From: Telopea speciosissima
Taxonomy: Eukaryota; Streptophyta; Magnoliopsida; Proteales; Proteaceae
Assembly: GCF_018873765.1 (NCBI RefSeq)
Contig: NC_057919.1
Location: forward strand, 60,611,484 to 60,675,483
Direction: 5' to 3'
Length of the DNA stretch: 64,000 nt
Position numbers and translations under genes: made by a program. Positions within the stretch are counted from its first letter, which is position 1, and each line of letters starts with the position of its first letter. Shown here piece by piece: positions 39,576 to 62,278 of this stretch. The notes under the pieces are model-generated. The model saw only the letters and a program-made list of their open reading frames with translations. It made no database searches and was not told where the DNA came from.

Positions 39576-40374
39576 TTCTCCCGAAAAAAAATTATTCATA
39601 TACCTACCTATCAAACCAAGTTTTGGTCCAATAGTACTATCCACAAGTTACTCATGACTTCACAATTTTTGCAATGATGTCTTTTATCTTTGTTGTCATA
39701 GGAGGAGGAGATGGAGAAGAAGAACACTCAACACCCAAGAGTAAACACAACCCATTCGGGTGTTTGTTTGAGTATCAAAACTGAGAGAGAGTTTGCTAAG
39801 ACGAATTTCTCGGTTGGTCATTTTTGCAAGCCATCTTCTAGGGATTAAAACACCAAACCGTTTTCCAAACTAGTACTACAAACCGTATGTAAATTGGTTG
39901 TGAATTAGATAACAAAAACTGAATAGAAATTGGTAAAATCGGATCTAATGCAAAACGAATAAGATTTTGTTTGATTCCAGTCCAGTTCAATAATGATTTC
40001 ACCTTGTCAAAATGTAAGCCGCACCCGGATCAATTGACAGCCTTACTTGAGGGGTGTCCATAAGAAAATCCCAACAAAAAAATACTAACGAAAAAGACCC
40101 TCTTTAAAAAAGCAAGTACATGACAATCATGTTAAAAGCATCAATCGTGGAATGGGACAACAAAGGGCCGAAATGACTAGAAGCCCCCCCTATTTGATGC
40201 ATTGTAACCCTCTTCCAACCCCCTTATATGGCCATGCGTGAAAACATTCCCTTAGAAAATAAATATTTGGGAAGAGGTTCTGTCGTCAGTAGTTTTAAAA
40301 TGTCAAGAGTGAGATGGACTATTGGATGAGAGTGAAAGGGCAATCTATCCACGAAGTAGATAAAAGGCCAATCT
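39576..40374. other. No recognised gene
   Basis: AT-rich intergenic DNA up to the truncated 5' end of the LINE. Confidence 0.4.
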
Positions 40375-43300
40375 ATCCTACATGTCAAGGATATCGTTTT
40401 CTAGGCCAAGAACCATGGTGGATTCTTGTCATTTAATCGACTTAGGTTCCCATGGCCCTGTTTTTACCTGGAATAATAGGAGACAAGGAAAGGCTAACAT
40501 CAAGATTCGGTTAGATAGAGCCTTTGCTAACCAATGTTGGTGCTCGAAGTTCGAATATGCTGCTGTATTTTGTAAATCCACTGTTGGTTCTGATCATCTT
40601 CCGATCCTCATTGATACAAATGGTGGTAGATCTAAGGGTGTGAGACCCTTTAGATTTGAGAGCATGTGGTTCAAACATCCCCTGTGCCAACCTATAGCTT
40701 TGAAAGCCTGGGCAGAGACAACTATACAGCCAAATTTGCATCGAAAATTGGAGCATTGCAAACAAGTTTTCAAGAAGTGGAACAAATCAGTTTTTGGGCA
40801 TATTCAAACTCATATCAAGGAGCTGAAAGAAAAATTGAAGTACTACCAATCAATGCCAAACTCTGACACCACCCAGCAAAAAACAAGGAAGTGGAATCCC
40901 AGCTTAAGGAAGACCTATTCAAGGAGGAGGAAATGTGGCTGCAAAAGTCCAGAACTAATTGGCTGAGAGGAGGTGACCTCAATACCAAATACTTTCATGC
41001 CTCTACAATGCATAGGCGTCGACAGAATAAGCTTATCAAGCTAAGAAGAGACGATGGTAGCTGGACCATGGATGATAAGGAGCTGCAATTTGAAATTACA
41101 AATCATTTTCATTCGGCCTTTTCAACTCAGGGCATTGACTCTCAAGCTCTGCAGATCACTCTTCAACTGGTCCAACCGATGGTTCCTCTTGACATTGCAG
41201 ATCAGTTATGCATCCCCCCTGAGTTACTTGAAATCAAAGCTGCCCTCTTTGCCATAACCCCTCTTAAATCCCCAGGCCCAAATGGATTCCCTCCAGCCTT
41301 TTTTCAAAAATATTGGGATTTCACTCAAAATGAGCTTGCCACATTTGTGCTAGACTTTTTTGCTTCAGGGACTCTCCCACCTTCAGCTAATGCTAATTTC
41401 TTATGCCTAATTCCTAAAGTCTAGAACCCTGAATCAGCCAACCAACTGCGGCCTATTAGCTTATGCAATGTCGCCACGAAGGTGATCACAAAGATTTTGG
41501 CCACTCGACTTCATAGGCTGCTACTGGACATAATCTCTCCATCACAATCGGCTTTCGTGCCTCAAAGATTGATCTTGGACAACATCTACATAGCTCACGA
41601 GATATTCCATTATATTAGGAAGAGGAAGAAAGGCAAGAAAATGTTTATTGCAGTCAAATTAGACATGAAAAAGGCTTATGAATGCCTAGAATAGGTTTTC
41701 GTCGAGCAAATGCTTCTCCGGCTTGGTTTTTCATCCAAATGGACCTCCATGGTGATGAGTTGTATCACTTCAACCTCCTATCAGGTTCTTATAAATGGCA
41801 ACATTGGTGATGCGATCATTTCTACCAGAGGAATCCGACAAGGGGACCCTTTCTCCCCAGCCTTGTTTATTCTTTTCTCTCAAGCAATTAGTGATATCTT
41901 AAATAGAGATCAATCTTAGAGGAAGATTCTTGGAATTAGAGTGCGTAAAAGAGGACCAACCATTAATCATTTGCTATTCGTCGATGATAGCCTCCTGTTT
42001 TCGGAAGCAAAACCTTGCCAAATCCATTCCATGAAGGACAACATACAACTCTATTGTAAAGCAAGTGGGCAAGAGGTCAATTTGCAAAAATCATCAATTT
42101 CTCTTAGCCCAAATACTGCTTCACGCTTCAAACGCTGGTTCTCAAGGATTCTAAAAATCCCTTATGGGGAGGGCCCTAAGAAGTACCTAGGACTCCCTAC
42201 TGATTTTGGGATTTCAAAGGTACAAGTTTTTAGAGAGATCAATGATAAATCTGTTGAGTTAATGCAACCTGGAAAAATAAACTACTCAACCAAGCTAAGA
42301 AGGAAATATTACTGAAATCTAAAGCTCTCACAATGAACACCTTTGCTTCGGCACATTTCAAGCTTCCAAGGACACATCATGATAAACTCAGATCTGCAGC
42401 CAGCAATTTTTTTTGGGGAGAAAAGGAGGAGAAAAAGCAGATCCATTGGATCTCATAGAAGAAGCTTTGTCGTTCAAAGTTTAATGGGGGCCTGGGGTTT
42501 CGAGACCCCAAGCTTCACAACCAAGCAATGTTGGCAAATGTAGCATGGCGGCTTTACTCTGATCCGCATTCTACATGAGCAATATTTATGAAAAGCATCT
42601 ACTATCCTTCCAACAACTTTCTCAATGCAGCAGTGGGGTCTCAAAGCTCTTGGGCTTAGCACAACATCATTGAAGGGAGGAAAGCCCTGTTATTGGACCT
42701 GATTTGGCAAGTAGAAAAAGGGGATCAGATTAGTATATGGGACGACAACTAGATCCCTTCAACCACAAACTTCAGACTTGTGTATCCAAAGCCCCAAGAT
42801 TGTAATCTCCATTGGGTTGCTAAGCTTATTGATCATGATAACAGGACTTGGAAAGTAGACCTCCTAAATCAGTTCTTTGAACCTTGTGACAAAGCTGCTA
42901 TTCTCAAAATCCCTCTATCTCTATTTCCACAGGAAGACATTTTGAGATGGGGGGCAACAAGAAATGGCAAATTCAGCGACAAATCTGCTTATCATCTCCT
43001 CTGCAACAGTGAAGGTGCCTAGCAATTACAGAGTAATTCTTCCTCCAACCTTCCTCTCAGCCAAGCTCCCTTGTGGAAGAAGATATGGAATTGCTCCACA
43101 CTGCCCAAGATCAAGACATTCATGTGGAAAGCCTGTGCTGGAGGGCTTGCAACTGGTACCTCTCTTAGTAAGAAGCACATTTCCCTCGACCCTTCTTGTA
43201 GTCTCTGTGATGCTCCATTGGAAAGTATAGATCATATTCTGCTCAACTGCGCTTTTGCCAGGGCCGTTTGGTTTGGATGCTCCCTTTCCTACATTGCTCT

Positions 43301-44104
43301 GTTGGAGAGCTTTCAACCTTTGGAGATTGGATAAATAACAGTTGGGAAACTCTCTCCAGCCATAGCAAGCAAGAGGGAAGAAGAAATATGACTCTGTGCA
43401 GCTTCTTAGCTTGGAACATTTGGCTAGCTCGGAACGAGAAAGTGTTCAATGGCATCTCTACTACGCTTGCAGTGGTGATCAACCGAGCTCATATGGCAGC
43501 TATTGAGTACCTCCTTGCACAAAGCACAAATCTAATTACCCCTCCTCATTTGTCTCCGACTCAATCTCCCCATCCAAATCATTGGAGTGCTCCAGCAGCA
43601 GGAAAATGTAAAGTGAATTGTGATGCATCTTTGGGTAAGGATAACAAAGGAGGGCTTGGTTACATTCTCAGGGATCACCTAGGGAAGCCTATTGCTGCCT
43701 CCTTGAAATCGGAAACATTTGATTCAGTTATTTTGGGAGAAACGTTGACTTTAAGGAACAATATGCTTCTGGCAATTGCGGAGCTTCAAGAATCTGTGGA
43801 GTTTGAATCCAATAACAAAGATCTTATATCTTTCATTAAGGGACAGCAAGACAGAGCCCCTCTGCTTGTTAGGCCAATCCTTAGTGATATCACCCACCTG
43901 TCCTCCTTTTTTATTTCATGCTCTTTTGAGTTTATTCCAAGAGACATCAACATGTTAGCTGACTCATTGGCAAGGAAGGCCCTTTCCTTATCGTGTAGGA
44001 AAGACTGGCCTATCTCCACTCCGTGGATTCAGTCTTCTTGTATTTCTGAGTTCATGTGCTCAACACGTTCTAATGAATAGTCTCTTCTTTACCAAAAAAA
44101 AAAA
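40375..44104 (+). mobile_element. L1-type LINE, 5'-truncated (LINE 1)
   Basis: Starts inside the endonuclease and ends in a short poly-A (about 44093-44104) after TTCTTTACC. Protein order: endonuclease end, RT, zf-RVT, RNase H, all plus strand and in several frames. No convincing target duplication was found. It is older than the LINE at 50513-52045, judging by its more numerous stops. Confidence 0.9.
40382..44080 (+). pseudogene. LINE 1 ORF2 remnant (endonuclease end, RT, zf-RVT, RNase H)
   Basis: In an intact element ORF2 nicks DNA and reverse-transcribes the LINE RNA. Seen in order: endonuclease C-terminus (CHLIDLGSHGPVFTWNNRR, IRLDRAFANQCWC, VGSDHLPILI); linker with NWLRGGDLNTKYFHA; RT with SPGPNGFPPAFFQKYW, QLRPISLCNV, SAFVPQRLILDNI, TRGIRQGDPFSPALFI, the catalytic LLFVDDSLLFSEA and KKYLGLPTDFG; zf-RVT (LRWGATRNGKFSDKSAYHLL, CSLCDAPLESIDHILLNC); and RNase H (KVNCDASLGKDNKGGLGYIL, EFIPRDINMLADSLARKA). 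Stops at 41422, 41692, 41917 and 42313 and several frameshifts (near 40900, 42350-42780, 43020, 43330) disable it. Confidence 0.9.
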
Positions 44105-47509: not shown

Positions 47510-48015
47510 GTTATAGTATTTTCAAAGAATACCAAACACGGTTTACACTTTACACTTTACATTTATCTGATCCTTCTCACCAGGGCAACACTATCTATAA
47601 GCTCCTCTCTTCAAGAGTTCCAAGTATTTCGTAGGAAGATTTTGAATCCAAAGCTTCTCTTTTAAAATTGTGAATTGCGGGAAAATCAAATACCCAACTC
47701 AACAACTCGATTTAGCAGAGCAATTCAGTTATTGGCAGATACAGCAATACTCTGCTTGCTTCAGTTGATTGGTTTTGCTGTTTGGGAATTTTCAAGAAAA
47801 GTAGATTTTCTGCTTTGTGCTGAAGTTTGGAACTTCCCTATTTTAGTGAAGATATAATTATGGAATGGACGTTTCTCTTTCTCTAAAAGATACCCTCTAC
47901 GGTTGAAATTCCAGAGCATTTGTAGCAAGAAACGGATATTCAAGAAACCCTCCTACTTCCGTTCCCCTAAAGCACTGACCCTCTTGTTCACAGTAGACGG
48001 AGAGAGAGAGAGAGA
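47510..48015 (+). promoter_or_regulatory. Promoter-proximal region and 5' leader of the copine
   Basis: The last part, from 47745, is repeated at 52052-52318. It contains possible TATA-like CTATCTATAAGC at about 47590, and a GA-rich run right before the ATG at 48016. Only unit A has the upstream part (before 47745), so unit B lacks the promoter-proximal sequence. Confidence 0.4.
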
Positions 48016-48177
48016 ATGGGTGGGTGCTTTTCGGACAGAAAGGGAGGACAACAGGCTATAGGAGGGGCACAACAAAGGCCCATGGCCATGAGCGATGAAA
48101 GAGCTGCTGAACCCAATGATGCAGTTGATTACTTCTTCAGGGCTCGCGGTTATCATGGCCTCTTCACCCAACTCGAG
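48016..48177 (+). CDS. Copine (BON family), first coding exon, partial gene
   Basis: 54 codons from MGGCFSDRKGGQQAIGG to ARGYHGLFTQLE, ending at a GAG|GTATTT donor. The MGGC start is a typical N-myristoylation signal. The NDAVDYFFRARGYHGLFTQ segment precedes the first C2 domain in plant copines (BONZAI), which are membrane-associated Ca2+-dependent proteins restraining plant immune responses. The MGGC-x-S and KGG-x-QAIGG pattern most resembles BON3 as I remember it, as opposed to the MGNCCSD start of BON1. The following C2 exons are not in the window: the intron runs into unit B and then retroelements. The gene may continue past 64000 or be truncated. Identical in sequence to the exon in unit B. 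Confidence 0.7.
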
Positions 48178-49784
48178 GTATTTACTATTCATCTGGGTTC
48201 TCTCTTCTTTACCCAAAAAAAACTAGAACACAACAAGAAAGAGAAAACTAAGGCTAAGGTTAGAGGGATTACTGTTTTCACTGCGCCCCCAATAAGATGT
48301 TGCCCTACTTTGCAACGTGTATATTAGAACTAAAGGTGATGATTCATGCTTAACTGTTGTTGCAACTTCTGTAGAATTGATTATGGCATTGAAATGAGTT
48401 TCATGTCCTTTGTTGAGGAAGGGACACGTGATGCTGCATGGGGGTATTCTCCTAAATGGAAAGAAGATAAGAATGAGCAATATATGACATGTCACATTCT
48501 GCTTGTGTGGCCAGTCATATGCTGGAAATTGGGAACATCTTTTCTTCATATTAAGGCCCTGCATGATAACACTTTTGTTTCTCTATTTCTCTATTTTTCT
48601 TTTTGTTTGTGGAAAAAAAGAAGAAGAATAGAATTCCGTTTGTTACTACCAGTTCATTTTTTAATTCATGGGAATGAACCAGTTACAAAAAATTGCTGAG
48701 AATTAGAGAAATAGAAGCTTTAATTTAGAATTTCTTTATTCCAGAAAGAAAGGGGAGAAATAGGGGGGGGGGGGGGAGAGGAGTTGCTCTTTAGTGAGCA
48801 CATGGTTAATTTGATTTGATGGTCAAAGGAGTAATTTCATTTTCAAAATAAAACACCACCTCCTCGAATTTAAATTTACTATGCGTTACCAAACACCTCT
48901 TTTTGTCAAGAAATTTGGCCCAGTAATAGAAATACAAAAAGTTATCCTTGGAATAGAAAAATAGCCAAGAAATAGAAGTGTTATAATGTAGGACCTTAGG
49001 GTCTAGCAATTCTATGAATTTTTACTAGATGGTTCATGTTACACTAAGTAAGAGTAGACAGATGCGAACAAATAATTCCTTCTTTGTGCATCATGATAGC
49101 TACCTCATTGGGTGATGTGTTATGGATTTTGGTATTGGCTTGTGGATAAGGTGTGGAATCTCTGATCTGGTCGGATGAACATGAACAGTTAGCAACCAGG
49201 TTCAGCTGACCATTCCAACTTGTTTAATAGACAAATTGTGAATCCAATATTTATTCTTGGAGACCAGGCCAGCCCTCTGACCCAACTTGGTATTTGCTAG
49301 AAAACCAGGTTGCTCACAATGTTTATGTTTTTAGTTGTCTTCACTCTTCCGGGCCTAACCTGTTTCCACCCCTTACTTGGTGGTTTTGGCCCCATTCAAT
49401 TGTGCAATATCTAGCCACTTACAGGAGATAACATTGTGTCCTTTCAGTTTATGTTGGCCTTTTATTTTGGAGGTTTGATACAAACACTTATCATTACCCT
49501 GGGATTGAAATATTAGGACAAACAATAAATCTTACTGTCCAAGTTGAACTTGCTCAAATTTGACAAGAAGCATTTTCATTTGTCATACTCTCCAAGTAAA
49601 CCTTAAGTTTCCCCCCCTCCCACAGTCAAACCTCTTCCCTAGCCACACTGTCTAGGCTAATGTATGATTGAAAAGAATTAAATTGTAATAGTATCAAAAC
49701 TTTACTTTTCTCATCTGTATGCACAATTGTACCAATGATGTGGAATTCTTGTGTTTAGACTTCAGAGTCCATGGAAGTACACTA

Positions 49785-50110
49785 TAGTTTTTTTTTTTTT
49801 TTAATTTTTATAGATAACAAGAGGCTTTACTGATAAAGTACAAAGTAGAGGACAACAACAAAAGGCCAAAATCTAGGACCCAAAGGAAGGGACTAAACAA
49901 TGAGATAGTGACCAAATACAGAGATTCCTTATCCAACTCATTAACACAAGAGTTTGCAAATCTTATCCTCCAAGAGAACAAGAACTCCCCTTTAGCACAT
50001 ACAACCCTAGCTTTCCTAATAACAGACAGAGTATCGCCAGAGCAGGAAAATATAGTTTATTTTGCTTCCACTTCGTACCATGGACTTTTGGATGAGACTT
50101 GAGAGTGGAA
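49785..50110 (-). pseudogene. LINE 3'-end remnant in the copine intron (unit A)
   Basis: Minus-strand tail: RIRFANSCVNELDKESLYLV and DFGLLLLSSTLYF followed by a poly-A (plus strand T tract 49787-49802). This kind of Leu/Ser-rich terminus plus poly-A is common at plant LINE 3' ends. The same remnant is in unit B at 54082-54410, so it predates the duplication. Confidence 0.45.
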
Positions 50111-50512
50111 CTTACTGTTGTACTGGCCTCAACATTGAGAGGGGGTGAATCAGTGTGTATAAAAACTTTCCCCTTTTTTAACTAGCTATTGGTACGGTAA
50201 CTGTTGTAGTATGAACCTGCAAACATAAACTGGCTGGTGCTGACCAATTTTACCAGTCACACACAGTCGTATGCACTCTTGCCTCTCAACAATATGGCCA
50301 GGCTACCAAGAATCACTCTGCAAGCAAACACATACTCCTACATCCAATAACAAAATAGCATAGATACACACAACACCAATTATACGTGGCCTGGCAATTT
50401 GCCTATGCCCACGAAGCAATACCCTTGTAGGGTTTCGTATTTGCTCGATACACTATTATTCTTTTCAATCGCAACAATGGTTCAGGAGAGTCTCCTACTT
50501 ATGTTCTTGATC

Positions 50513-52045
50513 TTTTTGTTTTTGGGTGAATAAAAAATCCATTACCAAAGGAAGAAAAAAGAAAGAACAGGAGGCCCCAAGAGGGGAAAAGAAAGAAAAC
50601 AGGACGCCCAACCCCAGCTTAGTTGGAGAGGTCCAAAGCAACAAAAGAAACATTATAAAGGCCCCAGGAATCAACAATAAGCCTGTTCTTAGGGGTATCT
50701 AAGCATTGGGAAGAAGCCATAGAGGATATCTTTGCAGAGATCTCAAAGGAGATGGAATCCCAAATCTGCCTGTAAGATCTAGAGTTGGAGGTCCATTTCC
50801 TGACATTGCGCTCCATCCAAATGTGGTTTAGGGTTGCACAAAAAGCCAATCTGCCCACACAGTCACATAGGCAAGAGCCTGCAAAGTACTTGGCAATCCA
50901 TTGCCATTCTCTGGGAAAGGGCCGGATACGTCTCTGAGTAGGCCAGCACTTGAAGAGGATGCCTTTCCAGATAGCTTTGGTGGTGGGGCACTCAAAGAAA
51001 AGGTGATTCAGATCTTCATCATTGTTCCAGCAAAGACAACAAGTAGGAGACACAAGGATCTGCCGGCTACGAAGAAAAGCCTGAGTTGGGAGGCAATTGT
51101 TGAAGATTCTCCAGGCAGTGAAGCTGTGCCGAGGGATGTGGTGTTTGAACCAAATGAGCTTGTACCAGGGGACCACCGGGGCTTTTAAGCGAATGTAGTT
51201 CTAGGCCACTTTGGAAGAAAACACACATGGCTTGTCTGTTGACCAAATAACACAATCTCCCCTTGTCCTCTGCCTTTTGGAAATAGATGGGAGATCATTC
51301 CAAAAAGTGGCAAGAGCAGGGGTAGGGGGGGAGGGAGTCCAGCCGTCTGAATCAAGGATGTCTGCCACCAAGGAGAGCCTATGGAGACCTGAGGCATAGA
51401 TGGTTCTCGGGGTGACCAAGTGAAGAAGAATTCCCCTCGGGTGCCAATTGTCCAGCCAAAGAAAAGTAGAGCCTCCATCTCCAATCTGGGAGCGAATGGC
51501 CTGGTGAACCAGCTGGCGGCAGGAGAGGATTTTGTGCCAGACCCAAGAGGCTTCAGAAGAAAGAGTGGCAGTCCAAATGGAGTTCTGGCGCAAAGGCCCG
51601 GAGTAGATCCAATCCACCCAAATGCTTTTCTTCTTTGAGGCAACATTCCAGAGAAGCTTAATGATGCCGGCTGTATTAACTTCTTTGATCCTTCTAATGC
51701 CTAACCCTCCTTCTTTCTTTGGAAGGCACACTGCCGCCCAGCTGAGAGGATGAAGGTACCGAGAGGAATCTGAACCCTTCCAGAGAAAAGAAGCCATGAG
51801 AGCTTCTAAGGACTTGACAATGGACTGGGGAAGGGCAAAGAAGCCCGACCAGTAGATGTGCGAAGCCTCCAGAACTGATCTAATAATAACCAATCTTCCT
51901 GCATAGAAGAGAAGCTTGCCTTTCCAAAGCTGAAGTCTTTTCCGGATCAGATCTAGCATGGGGCTGCAGTGATGGGCAGTGAGCCTAGCTGGAATGAGGG
52001 GGAGCCCTAAGTACTTGACCGGCAGCCTGCATTCAAAGAAGCCAG
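50513..52045 (-). mobile_element. LINE 2, 5'-truncated, between the two 2.77-kb repeats
   Basis: 3' end at 50513 (A-rich tail, T-rich on the plus strand). 5' truncation at about 52045-52051. It abuts unit A on one side and unit B on the other with no extra host sequence. CTTGATC occurs at both junctions (50506-50512 and 52046-52052). It encodes only the last part of ORF2 and has few lesions, so it is young. Confidence 0.9.
50619..52045 (-). pseudogene. LINE 2 ORF2 C-terminal part (RT end, zf-RVT)
   Basis: Starts in the RT region (GFFECRLPVKYLGLPLIPAR), then KRLQLWKGKLLFYAGRLVII, LEALMASFLWKGSDSSRYLH, KKEGGLGIRRIKEVNTAGII, DGGSTFLWLDNWHPRGILL. After one TAG at 51201 (a Trp position in relatives, by my reading) it continues WYKLIWFKHHIPRHSFTAWR, CCLCWNNDEDLNHLFFECP (zf-RVT), ending ALDLSN. 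Part of the frame between 51960 and 52045 needs no ATG because the element is 5'-truncated. Confidence 0.9.
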
Positions 52046-52318
52046 CTTGATCAATACTCTGCTTGCTTCAGGTGATTGGTTTTGCTGTTTGGGAATTTTC
52101 AAGAAAAGTAGAGTTTCTGCTTTGTGCTGAAGTTTGGAACTTCCCTATTTTAGTGAAGATATAATTATGGAAAGGCCGTTTCTCTTTCTCTAAAAGATAC
52201 CCTCTACAGTTGAAATTCCAGAGCATTTGTAGCAAGAAACGGATATTCAAGAAACCCTTCTACTTCCATTCCCCTAAAGCACTGACCCTCTTGTTCACAG
52301 TAGACGGAGAGAGAGAGA

Positions 52319-52480
52319 ATGGGTGGGTGCTTTTCGGACAGAAAGGGAGGACAACAGGCTATAGGAGGGGCACAACAAAGGCCCATGGCCATGAGCGATG
52401 AAAGAGCTGCTGAACCCAATGATGCAGTTGATTACTTCTTCAGGGCTCGCGGTTATCATGGCCTCTTCACCCAACTCGAG
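52319..52480 (+). pseudogene. Duplicate copine first coding exon (unit B)
   Basis: Encodes the same 54 residues as 48016-48177 and keeps the GAG|GTATTT donor. It lacks the promoter-proximal sequence of unit A; instead, LINE 2 lies 270 bases upstream. It could be an extra exon of the same gene or a non-functional copy, depending on where the remaining exons lie. Confidence 0.7.
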
Positions 52481-54081
52481 GTATTTACTATTCATCTGGG
52501 TTCTCTCTTCTTTACCCAAAAAAGACTAGAACAGAAGAAGAAAGAGAAAACTAAGGCTAAGGTTAGAGGGATTACTGTTTTCACTGTGTCCCCAATAAGA
52601 TGTTGCCCTACTTTGCAACGTGTATATTAGAACTAAAGGTGATGATTCATGCTTAACTGTTGTTGAAACTTCTGTAGAATTGATTATGGCATTGAAATGA
52701 GTTTCATGTCCTTTGTTGAGGAAGGGACACATGATGCTGCATGGGGGTATTCTCCTAAATGGAAAGAAGATAAGAATGAGCAATATATGACATGTCACAT
52801 TCTGCTTGTGTGGCCAGTCATATGCTGGAAATTGGGAACATCTTTTCTTGATATTAAGGCCCTGCATTATAACACTTTTGTTTCTCTATTTCTCTATTTT
52901 TCTTTTTGTTTGTGGAAAAAAAGAAGAAGAATAGAATTCCGTTTGTTACTACCAGTTCATTTTTTAATTCATGGGAATGAACCAGTTACAAAAAGTTGCT
53001 GAGAATTAGAGAAATAGAAGCTTTAATTTAGAATTTCTCTATTCCAGAAAGAAAAGGGAGAAATAGGGAGGGGGGAGGGGGAGGAGTTGCTCTTTAGTGA
53101 GCACATGGTTAATTTGATTTGATGGTCAAAGGAGTAGTTTCATTTTCAAAATAAAACACCACCTCCTCGAATTTGAATTTACTATGCATTACCAAACACC
53201 TTTTTTTGTCAAGAAATTTGGCCCGGTAATAGAAATACAAAAAGTTATCCTTGGAATAGAAAAATAGCCAAGAAATAGAAGTGTTATCATGTAGGACCTT
53301 AGGGTCTAGCAATTCTATGAATTTTTACTGGATGGTTCATGTTACACTAAGTAAGAGTAGACAGATGCGAACAAATAATTCCTTCTTTGTGCATCATGAT
53401 AGCTACCTCATTGGGTGATGTGTTATGGATTTTGGTATTGGCTTGTGGAAAGGTGTGGAATCTCTGATCTGGTTGGATGAACATGAACAGTTAGCAACCA
53501 GGTTCAGCTGACCATTCCAACTTGTTTAATAGACAAATTGTGAATCCAATATTTATTCTTGGAGACCAGGCCAGCCCTCTGACCCAACTTGGTATTTGCT
53601 AGAAAACCAGGTTGCTCACAATGTTTATGTTTTTAGTTGTCTTCGCTCTTCCGGGCCTAACCTGTTTCCACCCCTTACTTGGTGGTTTTGGCCCCATTCA
53701 ATTGTGCAATATCTAGCCACTTATAGGAGATAACATTGTGTCCTTTCAGTTTATGTTGGCCTTTTATTTTGGAGGTTTGATACAAGCACTTATCATTACC
53801 CTGGGATTGAAATATTAGGACAAACAATAAATCTTACGTCCAAGTTGAACTTGCTCGAATTTGACAAGAAGCATTTTCATTTGTCATACTCTCCAAGTAA
53901 ACCTTACCCCCCCCGCCAGTCAAATCTCTTCCCTAGCCACACTGTCTAGGCTAATGTATGATTGAAAAGAATTAAATTGTAATAGTATCAAAACTTTACT
54001 TTTCTCATCTGAATGTACAATTGTACCAATGATGTGGAATTCTTGTGTTTAGACTTCAGAGTCCATGGAAGTACAATATAG

Positions 54082-54410
54082 TTTTTTTTTTTTTTTTAAT
54101 TTTTATAGATAACAAGTGGCTTTACGGATAAAGTACAAAGTAGAGGACAACAGCAAAAGGCCAAAATCTAGGACCCAAAGGAAGGAACTAAACAATGAGA
54201 TAGTGACCAAATACAGAGATTCCTTATCCAATCCCCCCCCAGCTAACTCATTAACACAAGAGTTTGCAAATCTTATCCTCAAAGAGAACAAGAACTCCCC
54301 TTGAGCACATAAAACCCTAGCTTTCCTGATAACAGACAAAGTATCGCCAGAGCAGGAAAATATAGTTATTTTGCTTCCACTTCGTACCATGGACTTTTGG
54401 ATGAGACTTG
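54082..54410 (-). pseudogene. LINE 3'-end remnant in the copine intron (unit B)
   Basis: Counterpart of 49785-50110, with a T tract at 54082-54097 on the plus strand. The minus-strand open frame here is a little longer (about 95 codons) than in unit A because of small differences. Confidence 0.45.
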
Positions 54411-54826
54411 AGAGTGGAACTTACTGTTGTACTGGCCTCAACATTGAGAGGGGGTGAATCAGTGTGTATAAAAACTTTCCCCTTTTTTAACTATCTGTTG
54501 GTACGGTAACTGTTGTAGTATGAACTTGCAAACATAGACTGGCTGGTGCTGACCAATTTTACCAGTCACACACAGTCGTATGCACTCTTGCCTCACAACA
54601 ATATGGCCAGGCTACCAGGAAGTGCACACTCACTCTTCAAGCAAACACATACTCCTACATCCAATAACAAAATAGCATAGATACACACAACACCAATTAT
54701 ACGTGGCCTGGCAATTTGCCTATATCCACGAAGCAATACCCTTGTAGGGTTTCGTATTTGCTCGATACACTATTCTTTTCAATCGCAACAATGGTTCCGG
54801 AGAGTCTCCTACTTATGTTCTCGATC

Positions 54827-57264
54827 TTACAAGAACTAGGTCTTCAACTTTAAAGATGAATGGCAAAAAGAAGAATGTTACTGAGGGAAGACTAAAGCAA
54901 ATGCTCCCAAAGTTTAGGAGGGTGGGATTCAGAAAAAGTTCGCCAAGGAAAACTGTTTCCATTGCGGCAAACCGGGTCTTTGGAAGAGAAACTGCAGGAT
55001 CTACTTGGCTACCTTGAAGAAGAAGCCAGAAAAGTATTTTTGAATCTTCTGTCTTAATTGAATCCAATTTGTTGGTTGGACCAATTGACTTATGGTGTGT
55101 GGACTCCAGGTCCACAGTCCATGTTTGCAATATGTTGTAGGGGTTCAAGGAGACAAGAAGATTCCAGAAAATTGAGCTAGATTTGAGAGTCGGTACGAGA
55201 GATGAGGCCAACGTTGTTGTTGTTGGCACATATTTTTGGCGTTTTAATGATATTGGAACCATAGTTTAAATGAATTTTCTTACATTTCTGATTTGAAAAG
55301 GAACATTGTTTCTGTTTCAAAACTGGTTGATACTGGATATTCTTTTTGTTTCAATTTAAATTTTATTATTAAATTGAATGGTCAGTTTGTTACCTCTGAT
55401 TTTAAAGAAAAATGGTATGTATTTTTTGAAATCATTTCCAACTGGAACAATTAGTTTCAGTATGGTAGCAACAAATTTTAAAAGAAAGCAGTCTCCCATA
55501 AATCCCATATACCTATTGCATCTTAGATTAGATCATATTGGAGTAGAAACAATAAATAGGCTGGTTAGGGATGGACCTTTATAAAATCTAAAAGTGCATC
55601 CCTATCCGACTTGTGAATCTTGCCTATAAGGAAAAACAACCAAGAAACCCTTTCCCAAAAGGGTAGAAGGGCCAATGGTGTGTTGGAGTTAATACATTTT
55701 GATGTCTGTGGTCCCATAAGTATTTAGATCTGTTACGAATATGAATATTTTGTTATGTTCATAGTTGATTACTCTCATTTTTTTTTGGGTAAATGTTGAT
55801 TACTCTCATTTACTCTCAATTGCCATTGGCCTTTTGGGGTTTCACATTAGAGATGACTATTTACATATTGGATAGGATTCGAACTGAGTTTGTACCTATA
55901 GCACCCTCTGAGTTGTGGAATGAGTGTAAGCCTGGTTTACAACACTTGAGAGTGTGGGGCTGTATTGCACATATGAACAGGCAGCTCACAGATGAATTGG
56001 AATCCAACACAGATAGGTGTCATTTTGGGATACCCTAAATGCACCATATGATATTATCTTATAGCCTTATAGATCAAAAGGTGTTTGTTAGCAAGCACAT
56101 AATGTTTTTCTAATAGGATCTCATCACTCCTAGATCAGATTCAGTGATCTTTAATGAATTATCCCGTGATGAATTATTTTCGGTTCTGATTGAACATAAC
56201 TCTGATACTCCCAAATCTGTGGAACAACCTAGTATGGCTCGTTGTTCTGGGAGGTATGTTAAACCTCTAGTTCGTTATACCCTCACAGAGGACGACAAAA
56301 AAGTAGAAGAGTTTCTTATAGTGTCTGACTCTTTGGATTCGGATTCCAATAACTTCTTTGAGGCAATAAAGGATGTGGATGCAGACCGATGGAATGAAGC
56401 TATGTGCTCTAAAATGGATTCTATGTATTCCAACCAGGTCTAGACTCTTGTTGATCCACCATAGGGTGTAAAACCCATTCAATGTCAGTGGATCTACAAT
56501 AGAAAGAAAGGTGTGAATGGGAAAGTAGAAGAGGAGCAAGTTATTGAGCTCTATATATGGTCTCAAGCAAGCTTCTAGGAGCTGGAACATCCGTTTTAAT
56601 TAGAAAGCCGAAACATTCGGTTTTGAGCAAAACATGGATGAACTTGCGTTTATACTTATATAAAAAAGGGCGTACTCAATGCACGAGGCTCCCACCACTG
56701 TGGGTTTTGCGGAGGGTCATAATGTACATAGCCTTACCCCTGCTTTTGTAGAGAGGTTGTTTCTAGGTCCTATATGTAGATGACATATAATTGATTGGGA
56801 ATGATGTGGGTATGCTTTCATCTATCAAAATGTCATTGTCCTCAAATTTCTCAATAAAGGACTTATAAGAGACAAGTTACATCCTAGGTATTAAAATTGT
56901 GAGAGATTGCAAGAGTTAGATGTTGGGAAAGAATACAGTCGTATGGAGAAAATATGCCAAGCAGAAGTTGACAGTTGACTCTGCTATACGTGGAGTCATA
57001 GTATCATCTCATTAAGGAGATCATACAATGTGGTGATATTTGTATTGTCAAAAATCACACTACAGACAATTTGTCAGATCCCTTAACAAAAGAACTGACA
57101 CATATTGTATTCGACAGACATGTTGAGAACATGTGTATTAAATAAGTAAGACATTGGCTTTAATGTTACAAGTGGGTGATTGTTGGATATGTGTGTCTTT
57201 CAAAGCTTATTTAAGCGTATTAATTTGCATTATCATTTTATGTGCGATGGGTTGTCCTAATGTT
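54827..57264 (+). mobile_element. Decayed Ty1/copia fragment (copia 2)
   Basis: Plus strand; no intact frame. In order: gag zinc knuckle CFHCGKPGLWKRNC (the knuckle His is Leu); protease-like WCVDSRSTVHVCNM (DSGS expected); GAG-pre-integrase YLLHLRLDHIGVETINRLV; integrase C-terminus LWNECKPGLQHLRVWGCIAH; RT pieces (DVDADRWNEAMCSKMDSMYS; QCQWIYNRKKGVNGKVEE; GLKQASRSW; a YVDDI-type box near 56775); and the RNase H end with LTKELTHIVFDRHVENMCIK. A polypurine GTTACAAGTGGGTGATTG is followed by an LTR start TGTTGGATATGTGTG at about 57183, truncated at about 57264. Begins abruptly at the end of unit B; no 5' LTR. It contains an Au-like SINE. Confidence 0.85.
56660..56768 (-). mobile_element. Au-like SINE fragment
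   Basis: Plus strand: AAAAAGGGCGTACTC, GCACGAGGCTCCC, TGTACATAGCCTTACCCCTGC, GAGAGGTTGTTTC. This matches the 3' half of tRNA-derived Au SINEs (read in reverse) as I know them and also the SINE at 63817-63973. It lacks the tRNA-like head. It interrupts the copia 2 RT just before its YVDD-type box. Confidence 0.75.
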
Positions 57265-57775
57265 ACATCTTAAAGTGTCCACAACTAGGAACAATATTGG
57301 GCATGTTAAAGTATCGAGTGGTTTGATGTATTTGGAGTTCTTCAATCATTCCCTTATAATTTGCAAAATATTCATTCAAAGATCTGTCTCCCTGTTGAAA
57401 AGTGAAAAGCTTCTCATAAAGATCATACATACGAGAGATGTTCTTTTCTTGAGAAAAACTTTCACGTAGATCATTCCAAACATCCTTAGCAAGAGTGTGG
57501 AACATCACATTAGATGCAATCGCAGGTTCAACACTGTTCCATAACCATATTTTAACAACTGAGTTCTCACGCATCCACTCATCATGAGTCTTGACTGTAG
57601 TAGCGTCCTTTGGATCAACAATAGGTGGATCATTTGTAATATATTTTATTTTTCCTTTTGCATGAATATATGCTTGTACTGCCTGTGCCCATAACAGATA
57701 GTTTGAAACTCCAGATAACTTAATGGTAGAAATTTAAACTTGGACAGTATCCGTTTGAGTTTTGGGATCAGCCAT
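57263..57775 (-). pseudogene. Copia gag fragment (copia 3)
   Basis: Minus strand: a MADPKTQTD-like start near 57773, then SGVSNYLLWAQAVQAYIHAK after a stop, DPKDATTVKTHDEW, IWLWNSVEPAIASNVMFHTL, FSQEKNISRMYDLYEKLFTF, LNEYFANYKGMIEEL. This is the UBN2/gag-like capsid of a Ty1/copia element. It is truncated at 57263, directly abutting copia 2 in the opposite direction. Confidence 0.82.
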
Positions 57776-59937: not shown

Positions 59938-60800
59938 AGGAAGGCTCCTATGTCAAAGTTAGGTAGGGGTTTGGTGATAATAAGTCAATAGTTGGTAAGC
60001 CAATGTTTGGTAGGAGATTTCTTATTTTCTAAAGTCAAGAATTAGGTAGGAAAGTTGGGTTTTGATGTCCTTTCTTGGAAGCTTTTGTTTCTATTTATAT
60101 GTAAGGCTGTTTTCAGCCAAGAAGACAACTTTGATAATTCAATATTGCTATAAGCAATTGCTTCTTTTGAAGTAAATCCATGGTGTTCGATCCTTGGTGA
60201 TGGAGCTGGTGTGTGATCCAAGTTGACTTCTTGCGGTGGGAAGCCCATGATGTTACTCTTCAGCCTTTATTCTCATCCTTTTTCAAGCAGATTTGTTTGT
60301 TTAAACCTTTGCCTTTCCTACTGTTCCAGATCTATCCCTCCACATTACCTTCACTCTTGAACTAAACCATACCCTATTAAACCATCCCGGCCTTAACCCC
60401 ATCGAATTGAACCTCTTCTTCCCCTGATTCAGATCCTGTTTTGGGACTGGTTGAACCTTCATTCTAGTTCTACATTAAAACCAGTACTGATCGATTGGAG
60501 AAGGCAGCTTGGTAGAAATTCCTCTCTAGGGAATCGCAGGAGGAGCAAAGATTGTTTCGAAGAGTAATATAGATCCAATGATTGGATCAGAGGTGCAACA
60601 ACAGTATGAACTTGAATAAACACCAATCAATTCTTCACTCCAGGTGACCAGTAGCAATAAAACCCTAGTTTTCAATTGAAAACTTCATCTAGGGTTTAAT
60701 CTTCAACCATATGCAGCATAGGGTGCTACACCCTTTAAAGAAAAATCGAGCTGTTGGAGACTTTGAAACCAAAATCGCAGATCAGAACAACCTAATGGTT
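59938..60800. other. LTR-like and leader-like retroelement sequence
   Basis: 59938-60180 reads on the plus strand like a copia LTR (TATA-like CTATTTATATGTAAGG at about 60091). It continues the sequence interrupted by the fold-back element (58430-58553). 60250-60800 shows no protein similarity and, read on the minus strand, lies downstream of the PBS at 60803-60814. Confidence 0.45.
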
Positions 60801-60802
60801 GT

Positions 60803-60814
60803 GCTCTGATACCA
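60803..60814 (-). promoter_or_regulatory. Copia primer-binding site
   Basis: The minus strand reads TGGTATCAGAGC, preceded by an LTR-like end GCCCTGCTACA. It is fused to copia 4 protease sequence on its upstream side, so the LTR body is missing. Confidence 0.7.
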
Positions 60815-60849
60815 TGTAGCAGGGCAGAGCCCTAAAATACCAGAACCGA

Positions 60850-62278
60850 GAGAGATGTGAAGAGAGGAGATGGAGAAAAAGAGTGGAGAAGGGATAGTAG
60901 TAGAAGTAGCTGCAGTAGAAGGTCTTGTGCCATCCAAGTAATACAAGCCATCACACTCAAGCCCGCCACCAATTGTCTTCCTTGTCTGATGGTCCTGAAA
61001 AACACAATAAGAAAGATAAAATGTTACAGAACAATTAAGGGATTTAGTAAGTTGACTAACAGATAAAAGGCTTATAGGTAATTTAGGAATATGAAGAACA
61101 TGAGAGAGGGTCATGGAGGATGTGGGAGAAACATCTCCATGGCCAGTTACTTCAGTTGAGGACCCATCAGCAAGGATAACTTTAGAAGAAGTTTGATTCA
61201 GTGAAGAAAACAAATATGGCTTACCAGTCATATGACAAGAGGCACTATAATCAATAAGCATGGTTCAAGATTTTGCGAAATATCACCGATATATCGGCAT
61301 ATTTCGGAAATCTCAACACTACCGAGACGGAATGGCCATAAGAAATGAAAAAAGTACAAATTTCGGCGAATTTTCGTGATATTTCGGGATATTTCAGGAT
61401 TTACATGGCAATTGTGGATGACTACACTCGTTTCTTCTCCGAAACTATACTGTGGTCCACGTATGTCCTTTAGATAGAGAGCAATGGATGCCGACTCCAA
61501 CGGAGCATGAGTGGGGTCGATCCAGGAAGGCATAACAATTATTACTAGAATTTGTTTTATGACAGTTGTGAGCCTTGTGAGTTGTGAGTTGTGACTTTGT
61601 GTATTGACTATTGAGTATTGAACTAATGACTTTTATGGAGTTTCTGAGTTATGACTTATGAACTTACGCACTTATGACTTTATGAGTTTAAAGTTTAAAC
61701 TAAAGGCTACATTTGACCTTATTTTTGTTTCATTACTTTGTTTAAATTTGTTATTATGTCTTTTAGTACTTATACAATGTGTATTTAACTATTTATACAT
61801 CAAGGTCCAACCGTATACTGTCAATCAAGGGTGTAAACGCAAAACACCACTTTGAGTTCACTTTTTTGCAATATGAAGGTTTAAATGTGTTTATTTAGCT
61901 TAAATAAGGGTGTACATGAAGTATCATGCCTTAATATGGCCAAAAACCCACCGAGATGGACTGCCGAAATATGGAAGAAAAAATACCATATTTTGGCGAA
62001 ATTTCGGATATTTTGAAAATCTCGACTTGCCCGAAATGGCGAGATGAGACGAGATCTTGAACCTTGTCAATAAGCCAGGAGGCAGAAGAAGGCTAAAAGA
62101 CTGAGTGACCTTTATATGCTACGGTGGCGGTAGATGTGGAGGCAGAATTAGTTTCAAGTTGCTGGAGGCGTTTAACTAACTGGTTGTAATCATCACGGGA
62201 CACAGTGGATGAGGTATCTGACGTAGAACTCTGAGTCATATCGCTGGAAGGTTTCTCAGTAGGTTTCACATCAGCCAC
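60850..62278 (-). pseudogene. Copia gag-end and protease, split by a DNA element (copia 4)
   Basis: 62278-62093 encodes MADVKPTEKPSSDMTQSS, DDYNQLVKRLQQLE and ends KGHSVF with a stop. The continuation SSASWLID is interrupted by the 807-bp insert and resumes at 61259 as LIDYSASCHMTGKPYLF, then VILADGSSTEVTGHGDV, LPISLLSVSQLTKSLNCSVT, GGLECDGLYYLDGTRPS. It is a copia protease with D-S-G-A altered to D-Y-S-A. After about 60870 it runs into LTR-end sequence instead of integrase. Confidence 0.82.
61260..62066. mobile_element. 807-bp non-autonomous DNA element with 9-bp target duplication
   Basis: Perfect target duplication TCAATAAGC at 61251-61259 and 62067-62075. Termini GGTTCAAGAT at both ends (inverted). 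Subterminal regions rich in TTTCGGnnATnTTTCGG and ACCGAGACGG motifs. The insertion lies exactly inside the copia protease active-site codons; removing it and one duplication restores the reading frame. Nine bases suggests Mutator-like mobilisation. Confidence 0.85.

Follow-up and report, generated by a model that had tools for sequence, protein, structure and literature searches.

A LINE between two 2.77-kb direct repeats in Telopea speciosissima: a probable giant target-site duplication

In the genome of Telopea speciosissima, a 5'-truncated LINE, here called LINE 2, sits between the two copies of a 2.77-kb direct repeat. We propose that a single aberrant insertion made both the LINE and the duplication, which would formally be a giant target-site duplication (TSD), and we put the probability of this reading at about 0.64; this weight, like those behind our wording on the rival explanations, is a judgement and was not computed. 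A giant target duplication had been suggested in the initial annotation of this DNA. The suggestion is supported by the current study, although not proven: the word GATCAAG at the LINE's 5' end is LINE sequence, and there is no short TSD. The stretch analysed, hereafter the window, comprises 64,000 nucleotides (C4:60611484-60675483), and the genome searched is the corresponding assembly (822.9 Mb, 1,287 contigs). The features of the locus, in window positions, are as follows.

47745..50514, + strand: unit A, the left copy of the duplicated target (self-comparison, global alignment, edge comparison)
50506..50514, + strand: 3' insertion edge, CTTGATC plus TT, with a putative nick at CTT/AC (from the intact version at 54820-54834)
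50513..52054, - strand: LINE 2, 5'-truncated, its outermost bases common to the units (alignment, Pfam, comparison with relatives)
52046..52054, - strand: 5' end of LINE 2, CTTGATCAA as read on the + strand, including CAA at 52052-52054 (comparison with relatives)
52052..54828, + strand: unit B, the right copy of the duplicated target (self-comparison, global alignment, edge comparison)
54820..54848, + strand: uninterrupted target across the edge of unit B, the counterpart of the empty site (five dispersed homologues)

Results

Comparison of the window with itself showed units A and B to be a 2.77-kb direct repeat with 96.5% identity, gaps included; it is the longest repeat pair within the window, where shorter pairs are present too. 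In a global alignment with 2753 aligned sites, the units differ by 38 transitions, 23 transversions and 9 indels, which are scattered along the whole unit, and the K2P distance is 0.0225. Both comparisons confirm the 2.77-kb direct repeats that had been described as adjoining LINE 2. The layout given for them also holds, but the exact edges are shifted and are ambiguous by 2-3 bases, because CAA at 52052-52054 and the two T after 50512 are common to unit and LINE. With 40 of 1344 candidates scored, the 823-Mb genome gave no full-length match to the unit other than A and B, and neither an empty-site nor a duplication-only allele was found among these candidates in the one assembly searched. Each unit contains an ATG-led candidate first exon (48016-48180 and 52319-52483) with GT directly after it. 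This reads MGGCFSDRKGGQQ...FTQLE, with 54 residues identical in A and B, and had no match in Pfam.

The element between the units is about 1.54 kb long, spanning 50513-52051 without the shared 5' bases. It contains the 3' part of ORF2 with a zf-RVT domain (PF13966, E 2.6e-20), the 3' end and, on the low-coordinate side, an A-rich tail. Its reading frame is single up to the TAA at 50621, with one interrupting TAG at 51203; the final TAA is separated from the 3' end, which closes with ...CACCCAAAAACAAAAA, by 109 nt. No Pfam match was obtained for the truncated upstream piece. As a query, LINE 2 has at least 42 matches in its own genome (40 of 3836 candidates scored). Protein scans and a DNA pattern yielded no usable relatives in viral contigs, and three loci (L001-L003) gave no match in a blast comparison. 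The relative L014 carries RVT_1 (PF00078, 5.1e-31) and zf-RVT, plus DUF4283 in an upstream ORF, and LINE 2 and L014 between them display the reverse transcriptase and zf-RVT in ORF2 by which a plant LINE, an L1-type non-LTR retrotransposon, is recognised. No endonuclease match was seen in the five ORF pieces of L014, a fragmented copy and the sole one scanned. The other marks of a plant LINE, namely the A-rich 3' tail, variable 5' truncation and short target duplications, were found among the 18 relatives described below.

The initial annotation had pointed to CTTGATC at both borders of the LINE, and the motif indeed occurs at 50506-50512 and again at 52046-52052. In the LINE sense it reads GATCAAG, and a search for this word in LINE relatives had been proposed as a check. 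The first set of relatives consisted of eight loci, one of which is the window itself; in all seven others (L005-L011), homology runs past the 5' end of LINE 2. On the window's + strand, L005, L006, L007 and L010 go on as GCTTGAT, then C or T, then AAGGAAGGCAGC, and L008, L009 and L011 as GCTTGAC and CAAGGAAAGCAGC. In a wider set of 18 relatives, which contains these seven copies, L025, L027 and L029 end before the 5' end of LINE 2 and 15 reach beyond it, and every one of the 15 continues upstream as element. The exact word is found in three of them (L013, L014 and L017), and L012 has AATCAAG, one change away; these four are the closest copies among those reaching the 5' end. The same position is occupied by GGTCAAG in L015, L016 and L018, by GGTCTTG in L019-L022, and by GGAAAAG in L023, L024, L026 and L028. 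In a tree, the copies nearest to LINE 2 are L012, L013 and L017, with L014 outside. Judged from these alignments, GATCAAG is not fixed across the LINE family but belongs to LINE 2's branch.

Since the element continues in 15 of 15 copies and CTTGATCAA is found in the closest relatives, CTTGATC at 52046-52052 is LINE sequence and not a 7-bp TSD. The evidence for a short duplication is thereby gone, and the 2.77-kb unit is the only target duplication left. LINE 2 diverges from its relatives just after CAA. The intact left edge (AGATACAG CAA TACTC) shows that the unit begins with the same three bases, so the join has a 3-bp microhomology.

At the other end of the element, the right edge of unit A reads CTTGATC and then passes into the LINE tail, whose first base is T, and the right edge of unit B reads CTCGATC TT ACAAG. 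Five dispersed homologues (L032 and L052-L055) run uninterrupted across B's right edge, to 10-26 bp past it. L032 has CTTGATCTTACAAG at the edge, and L052-L055 differ right after CTTGA, with CAATACAAG or TAATACAAG. All five carry T where unit B carries C; therefore, A's CTTGATC is probably ancestral and B's CTCGATC probably derived by a T>C change. The same T led us to reject a CpG reading, in which B's CTCGATC would be ancestral and the match between LINE and nick only 4 bp. Because the two T of unit B are common to the LINE tail, the nick on the primer strand can be CTT/AC. Thus, the 3' edge sits at a possible TT/A endonuclease nick, in a register picked by eye. Among the eight relatives with clear or weak duplications, a TT/A on the primer strand is readable in five (L016, L019, L025, L026 and L029; in L016 after the shared A bases were given to the duplication by eye) and does not fit in L022, L024 and L027.

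Clear short duplications of 9-16 bp lie beside six of the 18 relatives (L016, L019, L022, L025, L027 and L029) and weak ones beside two (L024 and L026). No duplication was accepted in the other ten (L012, L013, L014, L015, L017, L018, L020, L021, L023 and L028), a count that includes L017, which has no 3' end left to judge by, and the long copies L014, L020 and L021, whose true 5' end was perhaps not reached. The 5' ends of the relatives are scattered, and all except L017 have A-rich tails. Six truncated copies with no accepted target duplication, short or long (L012, L013, L015, L018, L023 and L028), may be insertions with target deletions. For giant duplications, 374-464 bp of 3' flank was compared with 3.9-8.5 kb upstream of each of the 18 copies, a span that larger duplications would escape, and no large direct repeat was found beside any of them; giant duplications are thus not common in this LINE family. 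The matches that the flank search did return are the short target duplications of L016 (15 bp), L019 (15 bp) and L022 (16 bp). Two more, at L013 (30 bp, inverted) and L021 (54 bp, 78%), were rejected as they start away from the element border.

The initial annotation had also proposed that the divergence of the units be compared with the age of the LINE. In a comparison with five close relatives, 22 of 1542 sites of LINE 2 (1.43%) carry private substitutions; 7 of these are transversions, and 14 are C>T or G>A. Units A and B differ at 61 of 2753 sites, or 1.11% per lineage. The ratio of LINE to unit is 1.29 (95% CI 0.75-2.13) for substitutions and 1.09 (0.39-2.62) for transversions, the LINE's private branch being an upper bound on its age because it can hold time before the insertion. 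The comparison is compatible with the same age: the LINE insertion and the unit duplication fit one date, with a wide interval and without proof.

Discussion

Several features expected of a giant TSD are seen at this locus. The repeats adjoin both ends of LINE 2 and leave no additional short duplication, the 3' edge can be placed at an endonuclease nick site, possibly CTT/AC, and insertion and duplication are about equally old by the ratio of 1.29 and its wide interval. In addition, we counted for the one-event reading that A and B, the sole full matches to the unit among the 40 of 1344 candidates scored, flank LINE 2. In such an event, the LINE endonuclease would nick the + strand at CTT/AC, at the unit's right edge, and the nicked 3' end would prime reverse transcription of the LINE RNA, that is, target-primed reverse transcription. 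The 3' end of the cDNA would then join through the CAA microhomology to a break 2.77 kb upstream, instead of a nearby second cut. The upstream break may have affected either the sister chromatid or the other strand of the nicked molecule; once the unit was filled in on both sides, the arrangement unit-LINE-unit would result.

This one-step account does not explain why LINE end and nick have CTTGATC in common, which counts against it. In a simulation that used the longest relative and the TT/A sites of the window, a 7-bp match in the register of CTTGATC arose in 1.05e-4 of random pairs (about 1 in 10,000), and 2.2e-3 of pairs (about 1 in 450) had a 7-mer of any kind in common within the last 12 bases. 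The match had been noticed post hoc. Speculatively, a template switch within one event would explain both the CTTGATC match and the CAA join. Thus, the cDNA end would have paired first with the nick via CTTGATC, stalled as its two mismatched terminal A blocked extension, and switched to CAA 2.77 kb upstream, all in one inherited event. We offer this version tentatively and hold it to be on the doubtful side.

Other histories of the locus have to be weighed against a single insertion. The LINE might have landed near the junction of an older, longer tandem duplication and deleted a stretch across it, by which the units were shortened. The resulting sequence would be identical to the outcome of one event, and no exact strike at the junction would be necessary; furthermore, the ten of 18 relatives without an accepted short duplication (L017 among them being unjudgeable without its 3' end) imply that irregular integration may be common in the family. 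This history, however, requires two independent events plus a deletion covering the junction, and no younger age of the LINE relative to the duplication could be detected. The self-comparison of the window also revealed no trace of a longer unit outside A and B, a point of limited weight as the survival of such a trace is unexpected. We regard it as unlikely. In a two-step history, the LINE would first have inserted in the ordinary way where a single unit has its right edge; CTTGATCTT would be the 9-bp duplication of that insertion, and its 5' junction would show 7 bp of microhomology. Later, the LINE border would have been connected to the unit start by illegitimate exchange, the partner being an empty sister or homologue. 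CTTGATC at both LINE borders would be accounted for in this way, the 9-bp duplication falls inside the 9-16 bp range of the relatives, and L027, a member of the family, has 5 bp of microhomology (GAAAA) at its 5' end. We nevertheless find the two-step history improbable, as the exchange must land no farther than about 2 bp from the end of the LINE and the CAA microhomology at the join suits direct joining of the cDNA end.

An assembly artefact, in which one haplotype with the LINE and one without it were falsely joined in series, would draw on a unit that is present in both haplotypes. The window contains no N, though, and the base-exact 3-bp microhomology gives no long overlap to cause a false join. 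Moreover, A and B have diverged by 2.2%, about three times as much as the 0.76% heterozygosity given for T. speciosissima in an excerpt of PMC13080361; this weakens the artefact explanation, which is quite improbable in our estimation. The alternative put forward in the initial annotation, that a pre-existing tandem duplication was struck by the LINE exactly at its junction with a 7-bp duplication of CTTGATC, drew its main support from that motif at both borders. This support is gone, since the closest relatives show CTTGATC to be part of the LINE itself. The nick would also be GATC/AA, as opposed to TT/A in five of eight relatives, and the exact positional strike needed is estimated at about 2 in 5,500. 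It is accordingly a very improbable course of events.

The single aberrant insertion that we favour has counterparts in human cells. In NER-deficient cells, human L1 insertions have target duplications of 5 bp to 5.3 kb with a median of 1,495 bp, for which a distant, unrelated second nick is proposed by the authors (excerpt of PMC5223499). There, as at LINE 2, the LINE is inserted between kilobase direct repeats of the target. That work, however, followed an engineered human L1 in cell cultures deficient in repair, whereas LINE 2 belongs to a plant and was read from a genome assembly, and the two copies of its target have since diverged by about 2%. In human cancer, an L1 bridging sister chromatids gave a 22.6-Mb tandem duplication with the L1 at its junction, and 1-5 bp microhomology is reported at many 5' junctions of L1-mediated deletions (both from an excerpt of PMC7058536). 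In the cancer case, as at LINE 2, the LINE marks the junction of a direct tandem duplication, and its 3' insertion edge has an endonuclease motif; the cancer event differs in being somatic and 22.6 Mb in size, compared with 2.77 kb in a reference assembly.

Within T. speciosissima, the ordinary insertions (L016, L019, L022, L025, L027 and L029) are of the same element as LINE 2, with an A-rich tail, commonly a 5' truncation and, in four of the six (L016, L019, L025 and L029), a TT/A-type nick. What sets them apart is the size of the duplication, 9-16 bp versus 2.77 kb at LINE 2. There are good grounds for regarding the LINE 2 locus as a new case of the kind known from human cells. No large LINE target duplication in plants was recognised in the literature searched, which lay mostly outside the subscription journals.

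If one event was responsible, host DNA in a plant lineage can be duplicated by the kilobase when a LINE inserts. If the template-switch version were true, LINE insertion would directly generate small segmental duplications in plants, in the present instance one that takes in a candidate first exon. With both junctions readable, the locus is a datable natural example. It is also relevant to the later half of LINE integration, that is, where and how the cDNA end joins, which is described as very poorly understood in the abstract of PMC6895275.

Other elements in the window

A second, different LINE lies on the + strand at 40364-44080, with an RVT_3 match (E 2.2e-15) and a weak RVT_1 match of 23.9 bits, under the Pfam cut-off of 29.6. 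Directly after unit B, at 54834-55240, one dispersed repeat gives way to another, many-copy one, and a copia gag-like zinc knuckle can be read there by eye only. Fragments with copia gag (PF14223) and Pol_BBD (PF22936) are found on the minus strand at 57263-57733 and 60782-61264.
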